NCBI RefSeq assembly: GCF_024741135.1 | Contig: NZ_JANSUY010000003.1 | Location: 1-64,000, forward strand | Length of the DNA stretch: 64,000 bases | Direction: 5' to 3' | Source: Aquiflexum gelatinilyticum | GTDB taxonomy: Bacteria > Bacteroidota > Bacteroidia > Cytophagales > Cyclobacteriaceae | Shown here: piece after piece, positions 52,533 to 59,755 of the stretch | How the letters are laid out: each line of letters opens with the position of its first letter | Numbering within the stretch: position 1 is the first letter of the stretch | Made by a program: the position numbers and the translations under genes | Notes under the pieces: model-generated | What the model was told of the DNA's origin: nothing | Database searches by the model: none | Seen by the model: the letters and a program-made list of their open reading frames with translations, nothing else

Positions 52533-52796
52533 ATATATTAAAAAAACCTCATGGGGTAGGGGAATGTTTTGTTATTTGATGCCATATATAATGGAGTAAA
52601 TTACAAAAACCTGATTATGAATGTTTGGATATATGAATATCCAATAATCAGCGAAAAAGCCAATTTGATTTCATCTTTTTCAAACCCCAATGCAAAATTA
52701 TATTTTGAAATATACTTATTTTCTGATTGTACTTATTGAATTCTTAATGGTTCGTCTGATTTTTGAATAAAGAGTAAGAAATTATTTATAAATTAA
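52533..52796. other. Intergenic region between proline dehydrogenase and the aromatic operon leader
   Basis: AT-rich and divergent. A TATATTTG box (minus strand, 52,530-52,537) may serve proline dehydrogenase. No gene was seen before the leader peptide at 52,832. Confidence 0.5.
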
Positions 52797-52827
52797 TTTG
52801 TTTTTAAAAAAGAGGCTCTTACTTTTG
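52797..52827 (+). promoter_or_regulatory. Candidate promoter of the aromatic operon
   Basis: TTTG (52,797-52,800), 19-nt spacer, TACTTTTG (52,820-52,827), which matches the Bacteroidota consensus TAnnTTTG exactly. Transcription would start at or within a few bases of the leader ATG at 52,832, implying a leaderless message if this is the real promoter. Confidence 0.5.
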
Positions 52828-52831
52828 AAAC

Positions 52832-52927
52832 ATGTTAATCGCAGCATTCGCCTTCTTTAGCTTTTATTACTTTTACTTTCGTCTTCAAAGCCGAATCGGA
52901 GCTGCTTATTGTCTAGAAAAAATCTAA
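52832..52927 (+). CDS. Phe/Tyr-rich leader peptide of the aromatic operon
   Basis: A 31-codon ORF (ATG to TAA at 52,925). Residues 6-16 read FAFFSFYYFYF: nine of eleven are Phe or Tyr (six Phe and three Tyr in the tract, with a fourth Tyr later). It is followed by the terminator at 52,941-52,976 and by the Phe/Tyr biosynthetic genes. Segment 52,892-52,903 inside its 3' half can pair with the 5' arm of that terminator. The peptide itself probably has no function; its translation would sense charged tRNA-Phe and tRNA-Tyr. Confidence 0.82.
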   Translation: MLIAAFAFFSFYYFYFRLQSRIGAAYCLEKI

Positions 52928-52976
52928 AAAATCATAAAGCAAAAAAAGCCCGGTTCGAAAGAGTCGGGCTTTTTTT
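52892..52976 (+). promoter_or_regulatory. Attenuator: antiterminator and terminator
   Basis: Terminator: stem 52,941-52,952 with 52,965-52,976 (seven A-U then GCCCG/CGGGC, perfect), extendable by two G-U and two Watson-Crick pairs to a GAAA tetraloop, with a T-run. Antiterminator: CGAATCGGAGCT (52,892-52,903) pairs with AGCCCGGTTCG (52,947-52,957) with one G-U pair and one bulged A. The two structures are mutually exclusive. A ribosome stalled on the Phe/Tyr codons (ending 52,879) would leave 52,892 onward free; one at the stop codon would cover it. Confidence 0.8.
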
Positions 52977-52993
52977 ATTAAACCTATCAAATC

Positions 52994-54091
52994 ATGAAAG
53001 ACCATTTACAAATCAAAGACTGGGGATTCGGAATAGAAGGCCATGTCATCATCGCAGGACCTTGTAGTGCTGAAACTCCTGAGCAGATCGAAAAAGTCTG
53101 CCTGGACATGAAAAAAGAAAACATGGTTCCTGATATGTTCCGCGCAGGAATCTGGAAACCTAGAACGAGACCGGGAAGCTTTGAAGGAATAGGTGAAGAA
53201 GGTTTGAAATGGATGGAAATTGTGAGGCATCACCTCAATATCCCCATCACAACCGAGGTTGGTAATGCTGCTCACGTGGAATTGGCATTGAAACACAAAG
53301 TCGATGTACTTTGGGTAGGAGCCAGAACTACTGTCAATCCATTTGCAGTACAGGAAATCGCCGATGCGCTCAAAGGAGTGGACATTCCTGTGATGATCAA
53401 AAACCCAATGAATCCAGACTTGCAGCTTTGGATCGGTGCTTTGGAAAGAATGCATGCAGTCGGAATCAATAAATTGGCGGCAATCCACAGAGGATTTTCT
53501 GATTCTTATGACAAAAGATTCAGAAACAAACCAAATTGGTCTATGCCGATCCACTTGAAAAGAGAGTGGAAAGGAATGGAAGTGATCAACGACCCGAGTC
53601 ATATTGTTGGAAACAGAGAAGGAATTCTCGAAACCGCGCAGAGGGCAATCAATTTTGGTCTTGATGGTTTGATGATTGAGACTCACCATGATCCGGATAA
53701 CGCCTGGTCTGATGCCAAGCAGCAGGTTACGCCAAAAAGATTGAAAGAAATCCTTTCTTTAATTGATTTCAAAGATACCCTAGGAAGTGAAAACCCTGGA
53801 GAAAGATTGAATGATTTGAGATCTGCAGTTGATCATTTGGACGATCAATTGTTGGATATTTTACAGGAGAGATTTTCCTTGATCGATCAAATCGGTGCCT
53901 ATAAAAGAGAACATCACCTTACTGTATTCCAATCTGACAGGTGGAAATTTGTCATGGAATCCAGGACCCAAAAAGGAGTGCAGAAAAACCTTTCAGAGAA
54001 ATTCATGAAAGAATTGCTTTACTGTATCCACGAAGAATCTGTGAAAAGGCAGGAAAAGCAATTGAGAGAAGCTGATCCCGTGAAAAAATGA
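52994..54091 (+). CDS. DAHP synthase / chorismate mutase (bifunctional, type I DAHPS with AroQ domain)
   Basis: 365 residues. The DAHP synthase barrel (1 to about 260) has IIAGPCSAETPEQ, FRAGIWKPRTRPGSFEGIG, TEVGNAAHVE, VGARTTVNPF and IHRGFSD segments; KxxxxRTRPGSF is the PEP-binding loop. A short linker leads to a C-terminal AroQ chorismate mutase domain (about 273-355; LNDLRSAVDHLDDQLLDIL, RFSLIDQIGAYKREH). It makes DAHP from PEP and erythrose-4-phosphate and converts chorismate to prephenate, so one protein covers the entry and the branch point. First gene of the operon, starting 17 bp after the attenuator, with a 102-bp repeat-containing spacer to aroB. Confidence 0.96.
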   Translation: MKDHLQIKDWGFGIEGHVIIAGPCSAETPEQIEKVCLDMKKENMVPDMFRAGIWKPRTRPGSFEGIGEEGLKWMEIVRHHLNIPITTEVGNAAHVELALKHKVDVLWVGARTTVNPFAVQEIADALKGVDIPVMIKNPMNPDLQLWIGALERMHAVGINKLAAIHRGFSDSYDKRFRNKPNWSMPIHLKREWKGMEVINDPSHIVGNREGILETAQRAINFGLDGLMIETHHDPDNAWSDAKQQVTPKRLKEILSLIDFKDTLGSENPGERLNDLRSAVDHLDDQLLDILQERFSLIDQIGAYKREHHLTVFQSDRWKFVMESRTQKGVQKNLSEKFMKELLYCIHEESVKRQEKQLREADPVKK

Positions 54092-54193: not shown

Positions 54194-55252
54194 TTGGAGT
54201 CAGTAATATTTTCAAATAATATCTCTTTTGATTTGAGTAAATACCTGAATCAATTGGGCTATTCCCAATTGGGAGTGATCTCAGATTCAAATACTTCAAA
54301 ATTCTGCTATCCGATTATCGAGAAGCTTTTGCCGGAAGGCCATAAACATTTTTCTTTTCCTGCCGGCGAAGCCAACAAAAACCTCAACACCTGTTCCCAA
54401 ATCTGGCAATGGATGACAGATGAAGGCTTTGACAGAAAAGCTTTGATCATCAATCTTGGTGGGGGAGTAACAGGCGACATGGGAGGTTTCTGTGCGGCAA
54501 CTTACAAAAGGGGAATCCGATTTATCAATATTCCGACAACTCTGCTCTCTCAGGTGGATGCCAGTGTCGGTGGAAAATTGGGGATTGATTTCAATGGTTT
54601 CAAAAACCACATCGGCGTATTTACCCAACCTGAACTTGTTTTGATTTCTGAAATTTTCCTTCAAACCCTTCCTTTGGAGGAAATGCGTTCGGGTTACGCT
54701 GAGGTTTTGAAGCACGGCTTGATCCAAAATGCCAATTACTTTTCTTGTCTCAAAATCGCAGATTGGGAAAAGCAAAATTGGAGGGAGATCATCGAAAAGT
54801 CTGTTCAGATCAAAAGGGAAGTGGTAGAAAAAGATCCTAAGGAAGCTGGATTGCGAAAAATTCTGAATTTTGGACATACGATCGGCCATGCTTTCGAATC
54901 TTTTTATCTCAATACCGATAAACATTTGCTCCATGGTGAAGCCATTGCGGTAGGGATGGTTTGCGAGGCTTTTCTTTCCCATAAAAAATCAGGATTGCCA
55001 AAAGAAGATCTCCAAATCATTACTGATGCCTTGACTGAAATTTACGGGTTTTTTCAGTTTTTCGAAGCTGATATCGATGATATCATCAAATTGTGCAGTC
55101 AGGATAAAAAGAATGAAGGATCAACGGTAAACTTTTCACTTTTGAGAAGAATAGGCAATTGTGATTACAACATCAAAGGAACAGCCGAAGAAATCAAAGA
55201 AGCCATCTCATTTTACCAATCATTAACTTCACAAGTTCAATTAAACCAATGA
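54194..55252 (+). CDS. aroB: 3-dehydroquinate synthase
   Basis: 352 residues starting at a TTG (MESVIFSNN). The NAD-binding glycine loop lies at 89-98 (GGGVTGDMGG), the IPTTLLSQVDASVGGKLGID loop at about 113-132, and the metal ligand segments are SGYAEVLKHG and the FGHTIGHAFES/HGEAIAVGM helices. It converts DAHP to 3-dehydroquinate, the second shikimate step. It overlaps aroA by 4 bp (ATGA). The gene order DAHP synthase, aroB, aroA puts three shikimate genes before the Phe/Tyr branch. Confidence 0.97.
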   Translation: MESVIFSNNISFDLSKYLNQLGYSQLGVISDSNTSKFCYPIIEKLLPEGHKHFSFPAGEANKNLNTCSQIWQWMTDEGFDRKALIINLGGGVTGDMGGFCAATYKRGIRFINIPTTLLSQVDASVGGKLGIDFNGFKNHIGVFTQPELVLISEIFLQTLPLEEMRSGYAEVLKHGLIQNANYFSCLKIADWEKQNWREIIEKSVQIKREVVEKDPKEAGLRKILNFGHTIGHAFESFYLNTDKHLLHGEAIAVGMVCEAFLSHKKSGLPKEDLQIITDALTEIYGFFQFFEADIDDIIKLCSQDKKNEGSTVNFSLLRRIGNCDYNIKGTAEEIKEAISFYQSLTSQVQLNQ

Positions 55253-56475
55253 ATCCAACCTTGGAAACTTTATTTCTAAGCCAGATTAGTGCTTTTCAAC
55301 CTACAGTCATCCCGCTTCCATCGTCCAAAAGTGAAAGCAACAGGGCATTGGTCATCGATGCGCTTACCGAAGGTGAGAACAAATTAAGCAACCTTGCCGA
55401 AGCGCGTGATACCCAGACCATGATCAGGTTGCTAGGAGAAAATCCTGCAATATTTGATGTCTTGGATGCCGGTACGACAATGCGGTTTTTAACTGCTTTT
55501 GTTGCTGCAACCAATCAAAATAAGGTCATGACCGGAACGCCCCGTATGTGTGAAAGGCCAATCGGGATTTTGGTGGATGCATTGAGAGAAATAGGTGCGG
55601 AAATCCATTACATGAATAAGGAAGGTTTTCCACCTTTGGCCATTCATGGCCTGAAAGAACAAAAAACAAATAAAATCACAATCCGGGGAAACGTCAGTTC
55701 CCAATACATTTCAGCACTGTTGATGATTGCGCCGGTGCTTCCTATGGGACTCGAATTGGAACTGACAGGAAAAATCGGATCGAGGACATATATCGAAATG
55801 ACCCTTGAACTCATGGCTGCTTTTGGTATAAAGTATGCTTGGGAAGGAAATTTCATCAAAGTTTCCCATCAAGCTTATCAACCTACCCAATTCAATGTCG
55901 AAAGTGATTGGTCGGGAGCAAGTTATTGGTTCAGCTTATTGGCATGTTCAGATGAAGGAGAATTGTTTTTGGAAGGCCTGAAAGAAAACAGCCTGCAGGG
56001 TGACTCCAAAATCGTGGACATCATGGACAGGCTTGGTGTCAAAAGTGAATTTCAAAATGGTGGGGTCAAACTCACCAAACAACCTGTCAAAGGACTTGAT
56101 TCCTGGGATTTTACACATTGCCCGGATCTTGCACAGACAGTGGCTGTGACTTGTGCGATCATTGGTCAAAAGACAAAATTTACAGGATTGGAAAGTTTGA
56201 GGATCAAGGAAACTGATAGGATTTATGCTTTGCAGCAAGAATTGGGGAAGTTCAATGCCCAACTCAAAGAAGGAGAAAATGAAGTTTTTACCTTGATTCC
56301 TTCCGTGACAATGCCTAATGAGGTCCATATTCACACCTATGATGACCACAGGATGGCCATGGCATTTATGCCGCTGATGACCAAAACGAAGGTGATTATC
56401 GAAGATCCTTCAGTGGTTAATAAATCGTATCCGAGTTTTTGGAAACACGTTTCCTTAATAGACATTAGACATTAG
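55249..56475 (+). CDS. aroA: 3-phosphoshikimate 1-carboxyvinyltransferase (EPSP synthase)
   Basis: 408 residues. Motifs: LPSSKSESNRALVI (shikimate-phosphate-binding, about 23-36), LDAGTTMRFLTAF (about 72-84), GRxYIEMT-type segments, ESLRIKETDR and the catalytic YDDHRMAMAF. It transfers the enolpyruvyl group from PEP to shikimate-3-phosphate. Start overlaps aroB. Its last codons and stop (IDIRH then TAG) lie inside an AGACATT-type heptamer repeat, so the exact C terminus depends on the repeat register. Slightly shorter than the common length of about 425-430 residues. Confidence 0.95.
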   Translation: MNPTLETLFLSQISAFQPTVIPLPSSKSESNRALVIDALTEGENKLSNLAEARDTQTMIRLLGENPAIFDVLDAGTTMRFLTAFVAATNQNKVMTGTPRMCERPIGILVDALREIGAEIHYMNKEGFPPLAIHGLKEQKTNKITIRGNVSSQYISALLMIAPVLPMGLELELTGKIGSRTYIEMTLELMAAFGIKYAWEGNFIKVSHQAYQPTQFNVESDWSGASYWFSLLACSDEGELFLEGLKENSLQGDSKIVDIMDRLGVKSEFQNGGVKLTKQPVKGLDSWDFTHCPDLAQTVAVTCAIIGQKTKFTGLESLRIKETDRIYALQQELGKFNAQLKEGENEVFTLIPSVTMPNEVHIHTYDDHRMAMAFMPLMTKTKVIIEDPSVVNKSYPSFWKHVSLIDIRH

Positions 56476-56546: not shown

Positions 56547-56915
56547 ATGAAAGGCACCTACACAATCCTTCTTCTGATCCTTTCCAATACCTTTATGACC
56601 ATGGCCTGGTACGGGCATTTGAAATTCAAAGACTTGAAGTGGTTTGAAAATCTCGGTTTGATCTCGATCGTTTTGATCAGTTGGGGAATCGCTTTCTTTG
56701 AATACATATTTCAGGTTCCTGCCAATAGGATAGGGTTCAGAGAAAACGGCGGGCCTTTTTCTTTGGTAGAATTGAAAGTGCTTCAGGAGGTAATCACTTT
56801 GGTTGTATTCATGATTTTCACTTTGGTGTTTTTCAAGAATGAAACCATCAAACTAAACCATATCATCGGCTTTGGATTTCTGGTTTTGGCAGTTTATTTT
56901 ATTTTCAAAAAATAA
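56547..56915 (+). CDS. DUF486 / DMT-family small membrane protein
   Basis: 122 residues, four hydrophobic helices (about 5-18, 36-55, 75-95, 103-118). FMTMAWYGHLKF, SWGIAFFEYIFQVPANRIG and FSLVELKVLQEVITLVVF match the DUF486 family, related to four-TM small drug/metabolite transporters. It lies inside the aromatic operon, 1 bp before pheA. A role in exporting or importing an aromatic compound is conceivable from the position only; the family is uncharacterised. Confidence 0.88.
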   Translation: MKGTYTILLLILSNTFMTMAWYGHLKFKDLKWFENLGLISIVLISWGIAFFEYIFQVPANRIGFRENGGPFSLVELKVLQEVITLVVFMIFTLVFFKNETIKLNHIIGFGFLVLAVYFIFKK

Positions 56916-56916
56916 T

Positions 56917-57732
56917 ATGAAAGTCGCCATTCAGGGAATTCCGGGATCTTTTCACCATCAGGTTGCGCTAAATTATTTTGGGGCAGAAACTGAAATCGAG
57001 GGTTTCAGGACTTTTGAGGAAGTCGCCAAGGCAGTTCAAAGAAGGGAGGTTCCTTACGGAGTCATGGCGATCGAGAACTCCATTGCTGGAGCCATTCTCC
57101 CAAATTATGACCTTATCGACAGGCACGGTTTACATATTTTTGAAGAATACTACCTGCCGATTTCCCACAACCTTATGGTTTTGCCTGGGCAAAAAATCAC
57201 GGATATCAAAGAGGTAAAATCCCATCCTATGGCATTGCTTCAGTGCAAGCGATTTTTTGAGGATTATCCTGATATAAAATTGATCGATGATGTGGATACG
57301 GCTACTGTTGCAAGGCGGATTTCTGATGAAAAAATCAAAGGATTGGGTGCCATTGCAAGCTCGACAGCCGCAAAAATCTATGGTTTGGAAATCCTAGCCC
57401 ATGACATTCAGACGATCAAAAACAATTTTACCCGTTTCATACTCCTGCAAGAAGACAAACCGCAGCAATCTGAAAAACCCAATAAAGCCTCATTCAAAAT
57501 CACTATCAGAAATGAAAAGGGAAGTCTTGCCAAGCTCCTGACTTTGCTCAGTGAAAATGACCTTGACTTGAGTAAAATCCAATCCATTCCGGTTATTGAA
57601 AATCCCTGGCACTATGCGTTTTTCATAGATGCGCAATTTGACGATTACGCCAAATACCTGAAGGCCATCGACGCCGTCAATCAAAATGGGGGAGAAGTGA
57701 AGATTTTTGGTGAATATGTAAGCAGGAAATAA
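56917..57732 (+). CDS. pheA: Prephenate dehydratase
   Basis: 272 residues from the ATG at 56,917; an upstream in-frame ATG at 56,872 lies inside the preceding gene and is rejected. Prephenate dehydratase domain (1 to about 180): GIPGSFHHQVALNYF, GVMAIENSIAGAI, ISHNLMVLPG, LIDDVDTATVAR, and NNFTRFILLQE in place of the catalytic TRF motif. ACT domain at the C terminus (about 188-265; GSLAKLLTLLSENDLDLSKI). The family converts prephenate to phenylpyruvate with feedback inhibition by Phe through the ACT domain. No chorismate mutase domain here; that function is in the DAHP synthase fusion. Confidence 0.96.
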   Translation: MKVAIQGIPGSFHHQVALNYFGAETEIEGFRTFEEVAKAVQRREVPYGVMAIENSIAGAILPNYDLIDRHGLHIFEEYYLPISHNLMVLPGQKITDIKEVKSHPMALLQCKRFFEDYPDIKLIDDVDTATVARRISDEKIKGLGAIASSTAAKIYGLEILAHDIQTIKNNFTRFILLQEDKPQQSEKPNKASFKITIRNEKGSLAKLLTLLSENDLDLSKIQSIPVIENPWHYAFFIDAQFDDYAKYLKAIDAVNQNGGEVKIFGEYVSRK

Positions 57733-57733
57733 G

Positions 57734-58879
57734 ATGAAGGGATTTTCCAAACGGACAGATAGCATTCAGGAATATTACTTTTCCCAAAAACTCAAAGAGG
57801 TCAACCGACTGCGGGAGGAAGGAAAGCCAATCATCAACATGGGAATTGGAAGTCCGGACCTGCCGCCTCATCCATCTGTTGTAGATGCTTTGCACCAATC
57901 TTCTTCATTGCCAACGAGCCATGGCTACCAAGGCTATCAGGGAATTCCTGCTTTGAGAACCGCCTACGCTGATTTTTACCAAAGTCATTATGGGGTAAAC
58001 TTATTAGCCGATGCGGAAATATTGCCCCTATTGGGTTCAAAGGAAGGTATCATGCACATTTCCATGACTTTTTTAGACGAGGGAGATCAGGTTTTGGTCC
58101 CAAATCCCGGTTACCCAACCTACACTTCTGTGACCAAAATGCTTTTGGCGGAGCCTGTTTATTATGACTTAAAATCAGAAAATGGCTGGTATCCTGATTT
58201 TGATGAACTCGAAAAAAAGGACTTAGGCAAAGTCAAACTGATGTGGGTCAATTATCCGCATATGCCTACAGGCGCTAAGGCTGATTTGAAGGTTTTAGAA
58301 AAGCTGATTGCATTTGGGAGAAAGCATCACATCATAATCGTCAATGACAATCCCTACAGCTTTGTTTTGGAGGATAATCCAAAAAGTATTTTCCAGATTA
58401 CAGGAGCCAAAGAAGTAGCTTTGGAACTCAATTCCCTCAGCAAAACTTCAAATATGGCCGGTTGGCGGGTTGGTTTTGTCGCAGGTAAACCCGAATGGAT
58501 CACTGCCATCACCAAAGTCAAAAGCAATATGGATTCAGGGATGTTTCTCGGAATCCAACAAGGGGCCATCGCAGCCATGTCATTGGGAAGGGATTGGTAT
58601 GGAGGACTGAATGAAATTTATTCCAAAAGAAGAAAACTGATTTGGGAATTGGCAGAAAAATTGGGTTTGGAATTTGAAAAGGACACAGCAGGCATGTTTG
58701 TATGGGCTAAATTGCCTCAGGGAAAAACATCTGATGAATTGTTAGATAACCTACTTTACAACAAATCTATTTTTGTTACACCCGGACATATTTTCGGAAC
58801 ACAAGGGGAAGGTTACATAAGATTTTCACTTTGTGTCAAAGAGGAATCCATCAAAGAAGCAATAAATCGATTATCATAA
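57734..58879 (+). CDS. Pyridoxal-phosphate aminotransferase class I/II
   Basis: 381 residues, fold type I. MGIGSPDLPPHPSV (about 36-49), VPNPGYPTYTS, NDNPYSFV with the PLP-contacting Asp/Tyr, and the Schiff-base lysine K237 in LNSLSKTSNMAGWRVGF. Located one base after pheA and before tyrA, so it most likely transaminates phenylpyruvate and 4-hydroxyphenylpyruvate with glutamate to give Phe and Tyr. LL-diaminopimelate or aspartate aminotransferase activity cannot be excluded by sequence alone. Confidence 0.9.
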   Translation: MKGFSKRTDSIQEYYFSQKLKEVNRLREEGKPIINMGIGSPDLPPHPSVVDALHQSSSLPTSHGYQGYQGIPALRTAYADFYQSHYGVNLLADAEILPLLGSKEGIMHISMTFLDEGDQVLVPNPGYPTYTSVTKMLLAEPVYYDLKSENGWYPDFDELEKKDLGKVKLMWVNYPHMPTGAKADLKVLEKLIAFGRKHHIIIVNDNPYSFVLEDNPKSIFQITGAKEVALELNSLSKTSNMAGWRVGFVAGKPEWITAITKVKSNMDSGMFLGIQQGAIAAMSLGRDWYGGLNEIYSKRRKLIWELAEKLGLEFEKDTAGMFVWAKLPQGKTSDELLDNLLYNKSIFVTPGHIFGTQGEGYIRFSLCVKEESIKEAINRLS

Positions 58880-58906: not shown

Positions 58907-59755
58907 ATGAAAAAAATACACATTATCGGTTTGGGTCTATTAGGAGGATCTTTTTCCCTAGCATTAAAACAAGTTAAGCCGGAAATCCATTTTACCGGAT
59001 TCGATTCCAATCCCCAAAACCTTCAGGATGCACTTACTTTAGGCATCATCGATGAAGCCAAAGAAAAGGCCGATGCGGACACAGATATCATCGTTTTGGC
59101 CACGCCTGCAAATACTTTGTCAGAATTATTAATCCAAACTTTGGATGAAATTGGTTCTGAAACATTAGTGATGGATTTCGGATCGACCAAAGAATTGCTT
59201 TGTCAGGCGGTTGCAGAGCATCCCAAAAGAGATCACTACCTGGCCGGCCACCCGATAGCAGGAACAGAATATTCCGGCCCAAAAGCTGCCAAAGCGGACC
59301 TCTTGGACAGAAAGGTTTTTATCATCTGTGAAATGGAAAAGACGGACATCCACCTGAAAGCCAAAGCATATGAGATATTGGAAGCGCTGAATATGAAACT
59401 GCGGTTTATGGATCCTGAGGAGCATGACAAGCACTTGGCCTTCGTTTCCCATCTGTCGCACATTACTTCGTTTATGTTGGGCAAGACCGTTTTGGATAAA
59501 ATGGAAGATGAAAAAAACATCTTTGACATGGCGGGAAGTGGTTTTGCTTCGACGGTCAGGTTGGCCAAAAGTTCGCCGGGAATGTGGGCTCCGATTATGC
59601 AGGAAAACAAGAAAAATATCCTTGAGGCTATGAGCTTGTACATTTCTAACCTTTCGAAGTTCCGTGATAAAATCATTGCCGATGACTACGAAGGATTGTA
59701 CCACGAAATGGAAAAAACCAACAAAATCAAGGATATCCTGGATTTGGGGAAATAA
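58907..59755 (+). CDS. tyrA: Prephenate dehydrogenase
   Basis: 282 residues. The N-terminal NAD(P) fold has GLGLLGGSF (8-16). HPIAGTEYSGPKAA (about 115-128) contains the conserved His and Gly residues of the active site, and SHLSHITSFML lies in the helical dimerisation domain. It oxidatively decarboxylates prephenate to 4-hydroxyphenylpyruvate. Monofunctional, without ACT or chorismate-mutase domains. Last gene of the aromatic operon, 27 bp after the aminotransferase. Confidence 0.95.
   Translation: MKKIHIIGLGLLGGSFSLALKQVKPEIHFTGFDSNPQNLQDALTLGIIDEAKEKADADTDIIVLATPANTLSELLIQTLDEIGSETLVMDFGSTKELLCQAVAEHPKRDHYLAGHPIAGTEYSGPKAAKADLLDRKVFIICEMEKTDIHLKAKAYEILEALNMKLRFMDPEEHDKHLAFVSHLSHITSFMLGKTVLDKMEDEKNIFDMAGSGFASTVRLAKSSPGMWAPIMQENKKNILEAMSLYISNLSKFRDKIIADDYEGLYHEMEKTNKIKDILDLGK

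Follow-up and report, generated by a model that had tools for sequence, protein, structure and literature searches.

Leader-peptide attenuation is a classical regulatory mechanism. In the enterobacterial pheL-pheA system, a Phe-rich leader ORF with an antiterminator/terminator controls prephenate dehydratase. Leaderless leader peptides are known from Actinobacteria, for example trpL in Corynebacterium, and the Bacteroid-trp motif is a Trp leader-peptide attenuator. Studies by Vitreschak in 2004 and Lopatovskaya in 2010 may treat attenuators of Bacteroidota. To our knowledge, Bacteroidota do not use Shine-Dalgarno pairing.

The authors of a 2010 paper knew of no leader peptides demonstrated in phyla other than Proteobacteria and Actinobacteria (PMC2965389). 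Table 1 of another source lists the Bacteroid-trp motif (RF01692) for Bacteroidetes (PMC2864571), and one section of a third describes sORFs of Bacteroides thetaiotaomicron as reminiscent of leader peptides (PMC7366714). Sections of a report on Flavobacterium psychrophilum give strong indications that amino acid operons are preceded by leader-peptide attenuators; they also describe a structured 5' element ahead of pheA, conserved in this species and other Flavobacteriaceae (PMC9723704). In the literature searched, which covered few subscription journals, RNA-based control of amino acid synthesis in Bacteroidota is thinly described, and no prior account of an aroG-led, leaderless attenuator with Phe and Tyr codons was found. 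The original prediction for the DNA studied here had called such attenuation little described in Bacteroidota. This holds for the aroG-led version, but attenuation in the phylum had already been proposed in parts of two of these sources (PMC9723704, PMC2864571).

In this study, we analysed a 64-kb stretch of Aquiflexum gelatinilyticum DNA, referred to as the window. We consider it very probable that the region in front of its aromatic amino acid operon is a ribosome-mediated transcription attenuator, predicted to sense the charging of tRNA-Phe and tRNA-Tyr and to control aroG-aroB-aroA-(DMT_6)-pheA-aminotransferase-tyrA. Codon conservation, covariation between strands 2 and 3, and double changes in the terminator all argue for a Phe/Tyr leader-peptide attenuator, as it had been read from the window sequence before.

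The leader ORF and the aromatic amino acid operon

The genes downstream of the leader had been said to make Phe and Tyr, and profile models matched them from aroG to tyrA. These genes and the leader features described below all lie on the + strand. A DAHP synthase-chorismate mutase fusion of the aroG type (52994..54091; PF00793 and PF01817) is followed by aroB, 3-dehydroquinate synthase (54194..55252; TIGR01357 above cut-off), and aroA, EPSP synthase (55249..56475; TIGR01356 above cut-off). A small membrane protein gene, DMT_6 or DUF486 (56547..56915; PF04342), lies between aroA and pheA, prephenate dehydratase (56917..57732; PF00800). The operon continues with a class I/II aminotransferase, for which the models do not single out a substrate (57734..58879; PF00155), and tyrA, prephenate dehydrogenase (58907..59755; NF006307 above its cut-off). 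The divergent upstream neighbour of the leader is proline dehydrogenase.

For comparison, a search of 118 family genomes gave matches in 104, to which 80 loci from named genomes were added. Among the named loci, aroG, aroB, and aroA were consecutive in 80/80, and pheA, the aminotransferase, and tyrA came next within the fetched stretch in 73/80. The DMT_6 gene was inside the aromatic operon in the window and in 14/80 named relatives. The closest named relatives (98% identity) were Cognataquiflexum species and an Aquiflexum strain, and the lower-ranked loci included titles such as Cyclobacteriaceae bacterium. In several relatives, aroG was preceded at about 340 nt by another DAHP synthase-chorismate mutase gene with 45-48% identity (for example G025:C28:3522-4583, G088:C1:5766689-5767756, and G117:C1:2614017-2615066). 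The leader lies between the two copies in these relatives, at the place where the window has proline dehydrogenase on the upstream side.

The leader ORF starts with ATG, has 31 codons, and spans 52832..52927 (MLIAAFAFFSFYYFYFRLQSRIGAAYCLEKI), with its stop codon at 52925. Nine Phe/Tyr codons occur within codons 6-16 (52847..52879), namely codons 6, 8, 9, and 11-16; in relatives, the aromatic columns at these predicted regulatory codons hold Phe or Tyr, with a single exception. Re-reading of the sequence thus gave the ORF and the nine codons as claimed earlier. Small ATG ORFs with at least 9 Phe/Tyr/Trp per 12 codons arose in 1/3,000 dinucleotide shuffles of 52533-52993 (461 nt), and those with at least 8 in 6/3,000. 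The window contains 1,189 small ATG ORFs of 8-50 aa on both strands (567 + 622), and the leader was the only one with more than 6/12 aromatic codons. A survey of 80 relative loci covered 22,884 small ATG ORFs, nested starts counted; ORFs with at least 7/12 aromatic codons were found 85 times at the leader position vs 42 times elsewhere. Pfam gave no match for the leader peptide.

The close set took in 111 loci whose DAHP synthase identity was 79% or more; the family search supplied 31 of them, and 80 were named. Some came from the same genome, and 90 leader regions were distinct. A leader ORF with at least 7 Phe/Tyr/Trp in 12 codons was present in 108/111 loci and in 88/90 distinct regions. 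Conservation of the aromatic codons, which the original prediction had proposed as a check, was thus found across relatives, with the Phe/Tyr columns kept. The exceptions were Nitritalea halalkaliphila, present twice (L023, L158), and Algoriphagus faecimaris (L163). Small indels shift the frame in N. halalkaliphila, which reads YFFYFLLLL and has five aromatics in 12. Since pheA is also in two pieces in this draft, a sequencing error in the leader is possible. The A. faecimaris contig ends 195 nt upstream of the gene. In A. yeomjeoni, about 90 extra nt separate the terminator from aroG (L170, 7910-8000), so the A. faecimaris leader may lie past the contig end and the locus was counted as non-informative. 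The extra sequence of A. yeomjeoni resembles the contig-edge sequence of A. faecimaris (L163 1-195) and is possibly a shared repeat.

The 88 distinct leaders were compared codon by codon, anchored on the strand 2 codons. Their aromatic columns held only Phe or Tyr, in synonymous codons, apart from one Ser. One column inside the run was Thr/Ser/Ile, and Arg directly followed the run in 86/88. The three codons before strand 2 were free in sequence and constant in number. The four strand 2 codons (RIGA) were nearly fixed at all three positions, and fixation at silent positions too is as expected of an RNA constraint. Further out, 11/11 loci of a mid group (DAHP synthase 55-63% identical) had a Phe/Tyr leader, with 6 to 8 aromatics in 12.

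Alternative pairings of the leader RNA

The leader contains four strands of a predicted attenuator. An intrinsic terminator, 3:4, with a GAAA loop and a U-run, folds at 52941..52976, and its main helix was paired in 97.6% of cells of the alignment. The stem starts 13 nt past the leader stop codon and has 16 pairs. The stem, U-run, GAAA loop, and 13-nt gap agree with the original prediction, but the stem is not the perfect GC/AU helix described there, as two of the 16 pairs are G-U. In the MFE fold, strand 1 (52841..52850) is the 5' arm of a possible protector hairpin, 1:2. Strand 2 (52892..52905) contains the antiterminator arm, 52892-52902; the 3' portion of strand 2, as far as 52905, is in addition a partner of strand 1. 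Strand 3 (52948..52957) lies within the 5' arm of the terminator and is the alternative partner of strand 2. The 2:3 pairing joins 52892-52899 to 52950-52957 in 8 bp, one of them G-U, and 52901-52902 to 52948-52949, with A52900 unpaired. A 12-nt segment at 52,892-52,903 had been claimed to pair with the terminator 5' arm; the pairing exists, but it covers 52892-52902 and includes the G-U pair and the unpaired A52900. The fold of leader and terminator had z = -2.0, with 5/200 shuffles equally good.

Covariation was analysed in an alignment of 42 distinct leaders, selected from that of the window and 76 distinct named ones. The terminator had five pairs with double changes, a number reached by 0/500 shuffles. 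Weaker measures were reached more often, the paired-cell fraction by 28/500 and the pair types by 202/500. The antiterminator 2:3 was paired in 99.7% of cells and near-invariant. Because strand 2 hardly varies, covariation within the close group is uninformative for 2:3, and divergent leaders were used instead. The divergent aroG-led and pheA-led sets gave 55 distinct leaders; 11 others were left out, as the stricter terminator rule found no hairpin in them (L042, L227, L231, L235, L247, L197, L200, L201, L204, L205, and L216).

In these 55 leaders, strand 2 paired with its own terminator arm at -14.8 kcal/mol vs -10.2 kcal/mol with permuted arms (0/5,000), and it beat 95% of its own shuffles in 48/55. 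A non-redundant set of 31 leaders gave -15.5 vs -10.1 (0/10,000). The permutation reached the observed value in 0/10,000 cases for the pheA-led leaders alone and in 30/10,000 for the aroG-led mid group alone. All of these permutations ignore phylogeny. When the ORF start replaced strand 2 as a negative control, the values were -4.62 vs -4.63 (5,087/10,000). In the close group, 7/88 leaders failed the antiterminator shuffle test. Seven leaders had only a 2-pair stem under the perfect-stem rule, and three of them, L010, L140, and L146, are among the test failures; judged from these three, all seven failures are taken as stems shortened by that rule. Compensatory changes in the stems, also proposed as a check at the outset, were found for strands 2 and 3 in divergent leaders and for the terminator, but none were found for strand 2 in the close group.

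These results are consistent with the following mechanism. RNA polymerase would initiate on the A of the leader AUG or beside it, and a ribosome would load on the 5' end. When Phe and Tyr are plentiful, the translating ribosome would pass codons 6-16 and reach the stop codon at 52925. Either this ribosome or strand 1 would then hold strand 2, allowing the terminator 3:4 to form. When either aminoacyl-tRNA is short, the ribosome would stall in the Phe/Tyr run and cover strand 1. Strand 2, left uncovered by such a stall, would pair with strand 3, which would block termination and permit read-through into the operon. In the close group, 12 nt separate the final Phe codon of the run from strand 2, and in 52 divergent leaders the median separation is 10.5 nt. 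With this spacing, a ribosome stalled in the run could be expected to keep clear of strand 2.

Folding of the nascent RNA with strand 1 masked gave a 2:3 probability near 1 in 88/88 leaders. The textbook version, in which 1:2 wins over 2:3 at equilibrium, was also computed and was not confirmed in the 88 leaders or the window. With the leader free, 2:3 still beat 1:2, with a mean probability of 0.96 in the 88 leaders and likewise in the window. The "off" state would therefore need folding order or kinetics, or a ribosome over strand 2. A simpler switch in which 1:2 takes no part would fit this balance: a translating or terminating ribosome on strand 2 would permit the terminator, and an upstream stall would mean antitermination. 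The divergent leaders lend it some support: the stop comes after the end of strand 2 in 36 of the 52 and falls within strand 2 in 13, and a terminating ribosome (assumed to cover ±14 nt) would overlap strand 2 in 47/52. However, in 77/88 leaders of the close group the stop is 22 nt further on than strand 2, which a terminating ribosome would therefore not cover, and this favours a role for 1:2 there. The 1:2 pairing is also largely kept in this group, with 84.5% of cells paired in the 42-leader alignment, and its own energy of -12.1 compares with -11.3 for permuted partners (0/5,000; 74 distinct pairs, phylogeny ignored). On the whole the tests of this hairpin gave mixed results, as it was better than shuffles at 0.05 in only 35/88 leaders. 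Its ten cells with double changes (1/500 shuffles) all fall at one pair, and one such pair is reached by 499/500 shuffles. We regard the switch without 1:2 as rather unlikely.

Other explanations of the locus carry far less weight than a Phe/Tyr attenuator. The small ORF might encode a functional membrane peptide, with the terminator incidental; its hydrophobic aromatic segment followed by basic residues does resemble a short membrane helix, and RIG and the next Tyr are conserved. But RIGA is strand 2 and is near-fixed at silent positions too, the aromatic run recurs in mid-group and pheA-led leaders whereas the remaining sequence does not, and neither the covariation of strands 2 and 3 nor the absence of a Pfam match fits such a peptide, which we hold to be very unlikely. 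A T-box, riboswitch, or protein-binding (TRAP-like) attenuator is slightly less likely still, as we found no point in its favour and Rfam returned no family at gathering score in the 64-kb window or in eight further loci. Least credible is the view that the terminator is a common one, or belongs to a small RNA, with no bearing on the operon, and that the ORF arose by chance in T-rich DNA. Such DNA does at times yield Phe-rich ORFs, as in the 6/3,000 shuffles above, but chance would hardly place such a leader before aroG in 108/111 loci with codons and pairings conserved.

Promoter position and distribution of related leaders

Upstream of the leader ORF, a -7 promoter box, TACTTTTG, lies at 52820..52827 (consensus TAnnTTTG), with a -33 element TTG at 52798..52800. 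The spacing between box and ATG is kept in relatives. Among the distinct close leaders with enough upstream sequence, a TAnnTTT(G/A) box preceded the leader ATG in 89/89, ending at a distance of 4 nt in 84 and of 5 nt in 5, and the last G was replaced by A in 17/89. For L139, L160, and L188, the in-frame ATG beside the box was used for the spacing and not the later ATG of the leader survey. As background, 8/2,298 ATGs of the window have such a box at the same distance. TTG stood at -34 from the leader ATG in 79/88 distinct relatives. A sigma-70 scan, which gave three sites vs 2.2 expected, was dropped for the published Bacteroidota consensus. The box was found at that distance from the ATG in 6/11 mid-group aroG-led leaders, and in 0/50 pheA-led leaders when the exact TAnnTTTG was sought 4-5 nt before the ATG.

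The relevant part of a published Flavobacterium map gives 4-5 nt from the -7 box to the transcription start (PMC6847099). For F. psychrophilum, the section concerned places the box at -12 to -5 and counts 5.5% of mRNAs as leaderless (PMC9723704). From the fixed box-ATG spacing and these published distances, the predicted transcription start falls on the A of the leader ATG (52832). The leader message thus seems to be leaderless, with a predicted start at or next to the A of AUG. A promoter placed on the start codon is absent from the original prediction, and we put it forward as a new point suggested by the sequence.

We also surveyed regions upstream of pheA in other operon types. A Phe/Tyr leader was present in 50/88 such regions and missing from 38/88; among the 87 long enough to shuffle, it was found in 50, compared with 92/8,700 shuffles. 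The terminator was present in 47/50 of these leaders under a simpler rule. In the phylum search, 30 of 94 matched places were taken in. The best places after two of the window type all had the leader (22/22, L195-L216), including those in G134 and G185, which are outside the class of the window; it was found in 0/6 further genomes of other classes (L217-L222). The class sample, in which only 29/99 genomes had a pheA match, gave 8/18 regions. Within the family, the leader occurred in 20/26 genomes with a pheA 38-46% identical and in 0/14 with a pheA 28-37% identical (14 of the 39 listed). In four of the six misses among the 26, the leader is at aroG instead (G056, G012, G078, and G010), and in one more the region was only 61 bases long. 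No pheA leader was found in the two cases where pheA is internal to a window-type operon (0/2). An ATG leader with at least 7/12 aromatics was found within 500 nt of 0/68 places with DAHP synthase homologues at most 52% identical, the 24 lowest-ranked of 134 places being left out of this survey.

The Phe/Tyr leader is thus widespread and not universal. The same logic as at aroG is found before pheA in other Bacteroidota, a further point absent from the original prediction. On balance, we lean towards the view that Phe/Tyr attenuation is old and widespread in Bacteroidia, and that in the aroG-led branch, in Cyclobacteriaceae, the leader gene became strictly leaderless, with one promoter position fixing both the start and the first codon. 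If so, the ribosome would load at the nascent 5' end, and the timing of the switch would be set without a ribosome-binding site.

Other candidate leaders were seen in the same genome. A Trp leader ORF, MKTTQNTYWWWHWTSKIEEPVVVA, lies about 0.2 kb before a trpE match at C1:760726 (L282), and a strong hairpin and T-run follow it before trpE. It had no Rfam match and is likely a second attenuator, judging from these features. Before hisG at C1:215542 (L281), a leader ORF, MSRKTFYSVSFSIPTILCGVHHLHHSS, contains HHLHH, with a promoter box 8 nt upstream of its ATG. A short ORF rich in Ile/Leu/Val, MFQIVTPLSFIILICNKN, precedes an ilvD-family gene at C17:106710-107663 (L283), and a terminator-like hairpin lies ahead of that gene.

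Relation to described attenuators

Below the gathering score, Rfam listed 29 weak matches (E up to 5, 701 bases), which we attribute to chance resemblance to the terminator and the AT-rich flanks. The best of them was Thr_leader, with 28.1 of the 55 bits required and E 0.004; it matched the other strand as well and was likewise taken as chance. Phe_leader (RF01859) reached 19.1 bits (E 1.6), its gathering score being 55. Bacteroid-trp (RF01692) had no match in the leader region, the 64-kb window, or the eight further loci.

The locus offers a concrete, testable attenuator in Bacteroidota, in which both amino acids predicted to be sensed are made by the operon itself and for which about 90 natural variants exist. 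Its predicted leaderless start would provide a test of whether transcription-translation coupling in Bacteroidota is tight enough for attenuation, and of ribosome loading without a Shine-Dalgarno site or 5' UTR.

Among known systems, pheL-pheA appears analogous in its Phe-rich leader ORF and its antiterminator/terminator on the Phe pathway. The Aquiflexum leader differs from it in mixing Phe and Tyr codons, in heading an aroG-led operon, and in its predicted promoter on the ATG. Bacteroid-trp is likewise a cis-regulatory leader motif of Bacteroidetes, but concerns another amino acid and another operon. The leaderless leaders of Actinobacteria may be compared in that the leader ORF begins at the 5' end of the message, whereas the phylum, promoter type, and amino acid are different. 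The F. psychrophilum pheA element belongs to the same pathway, but it is pheA-led and the Aquiflexum leader is aroG-led; the section that reports the element gives no codon or pairing analysis (PMC9723704).
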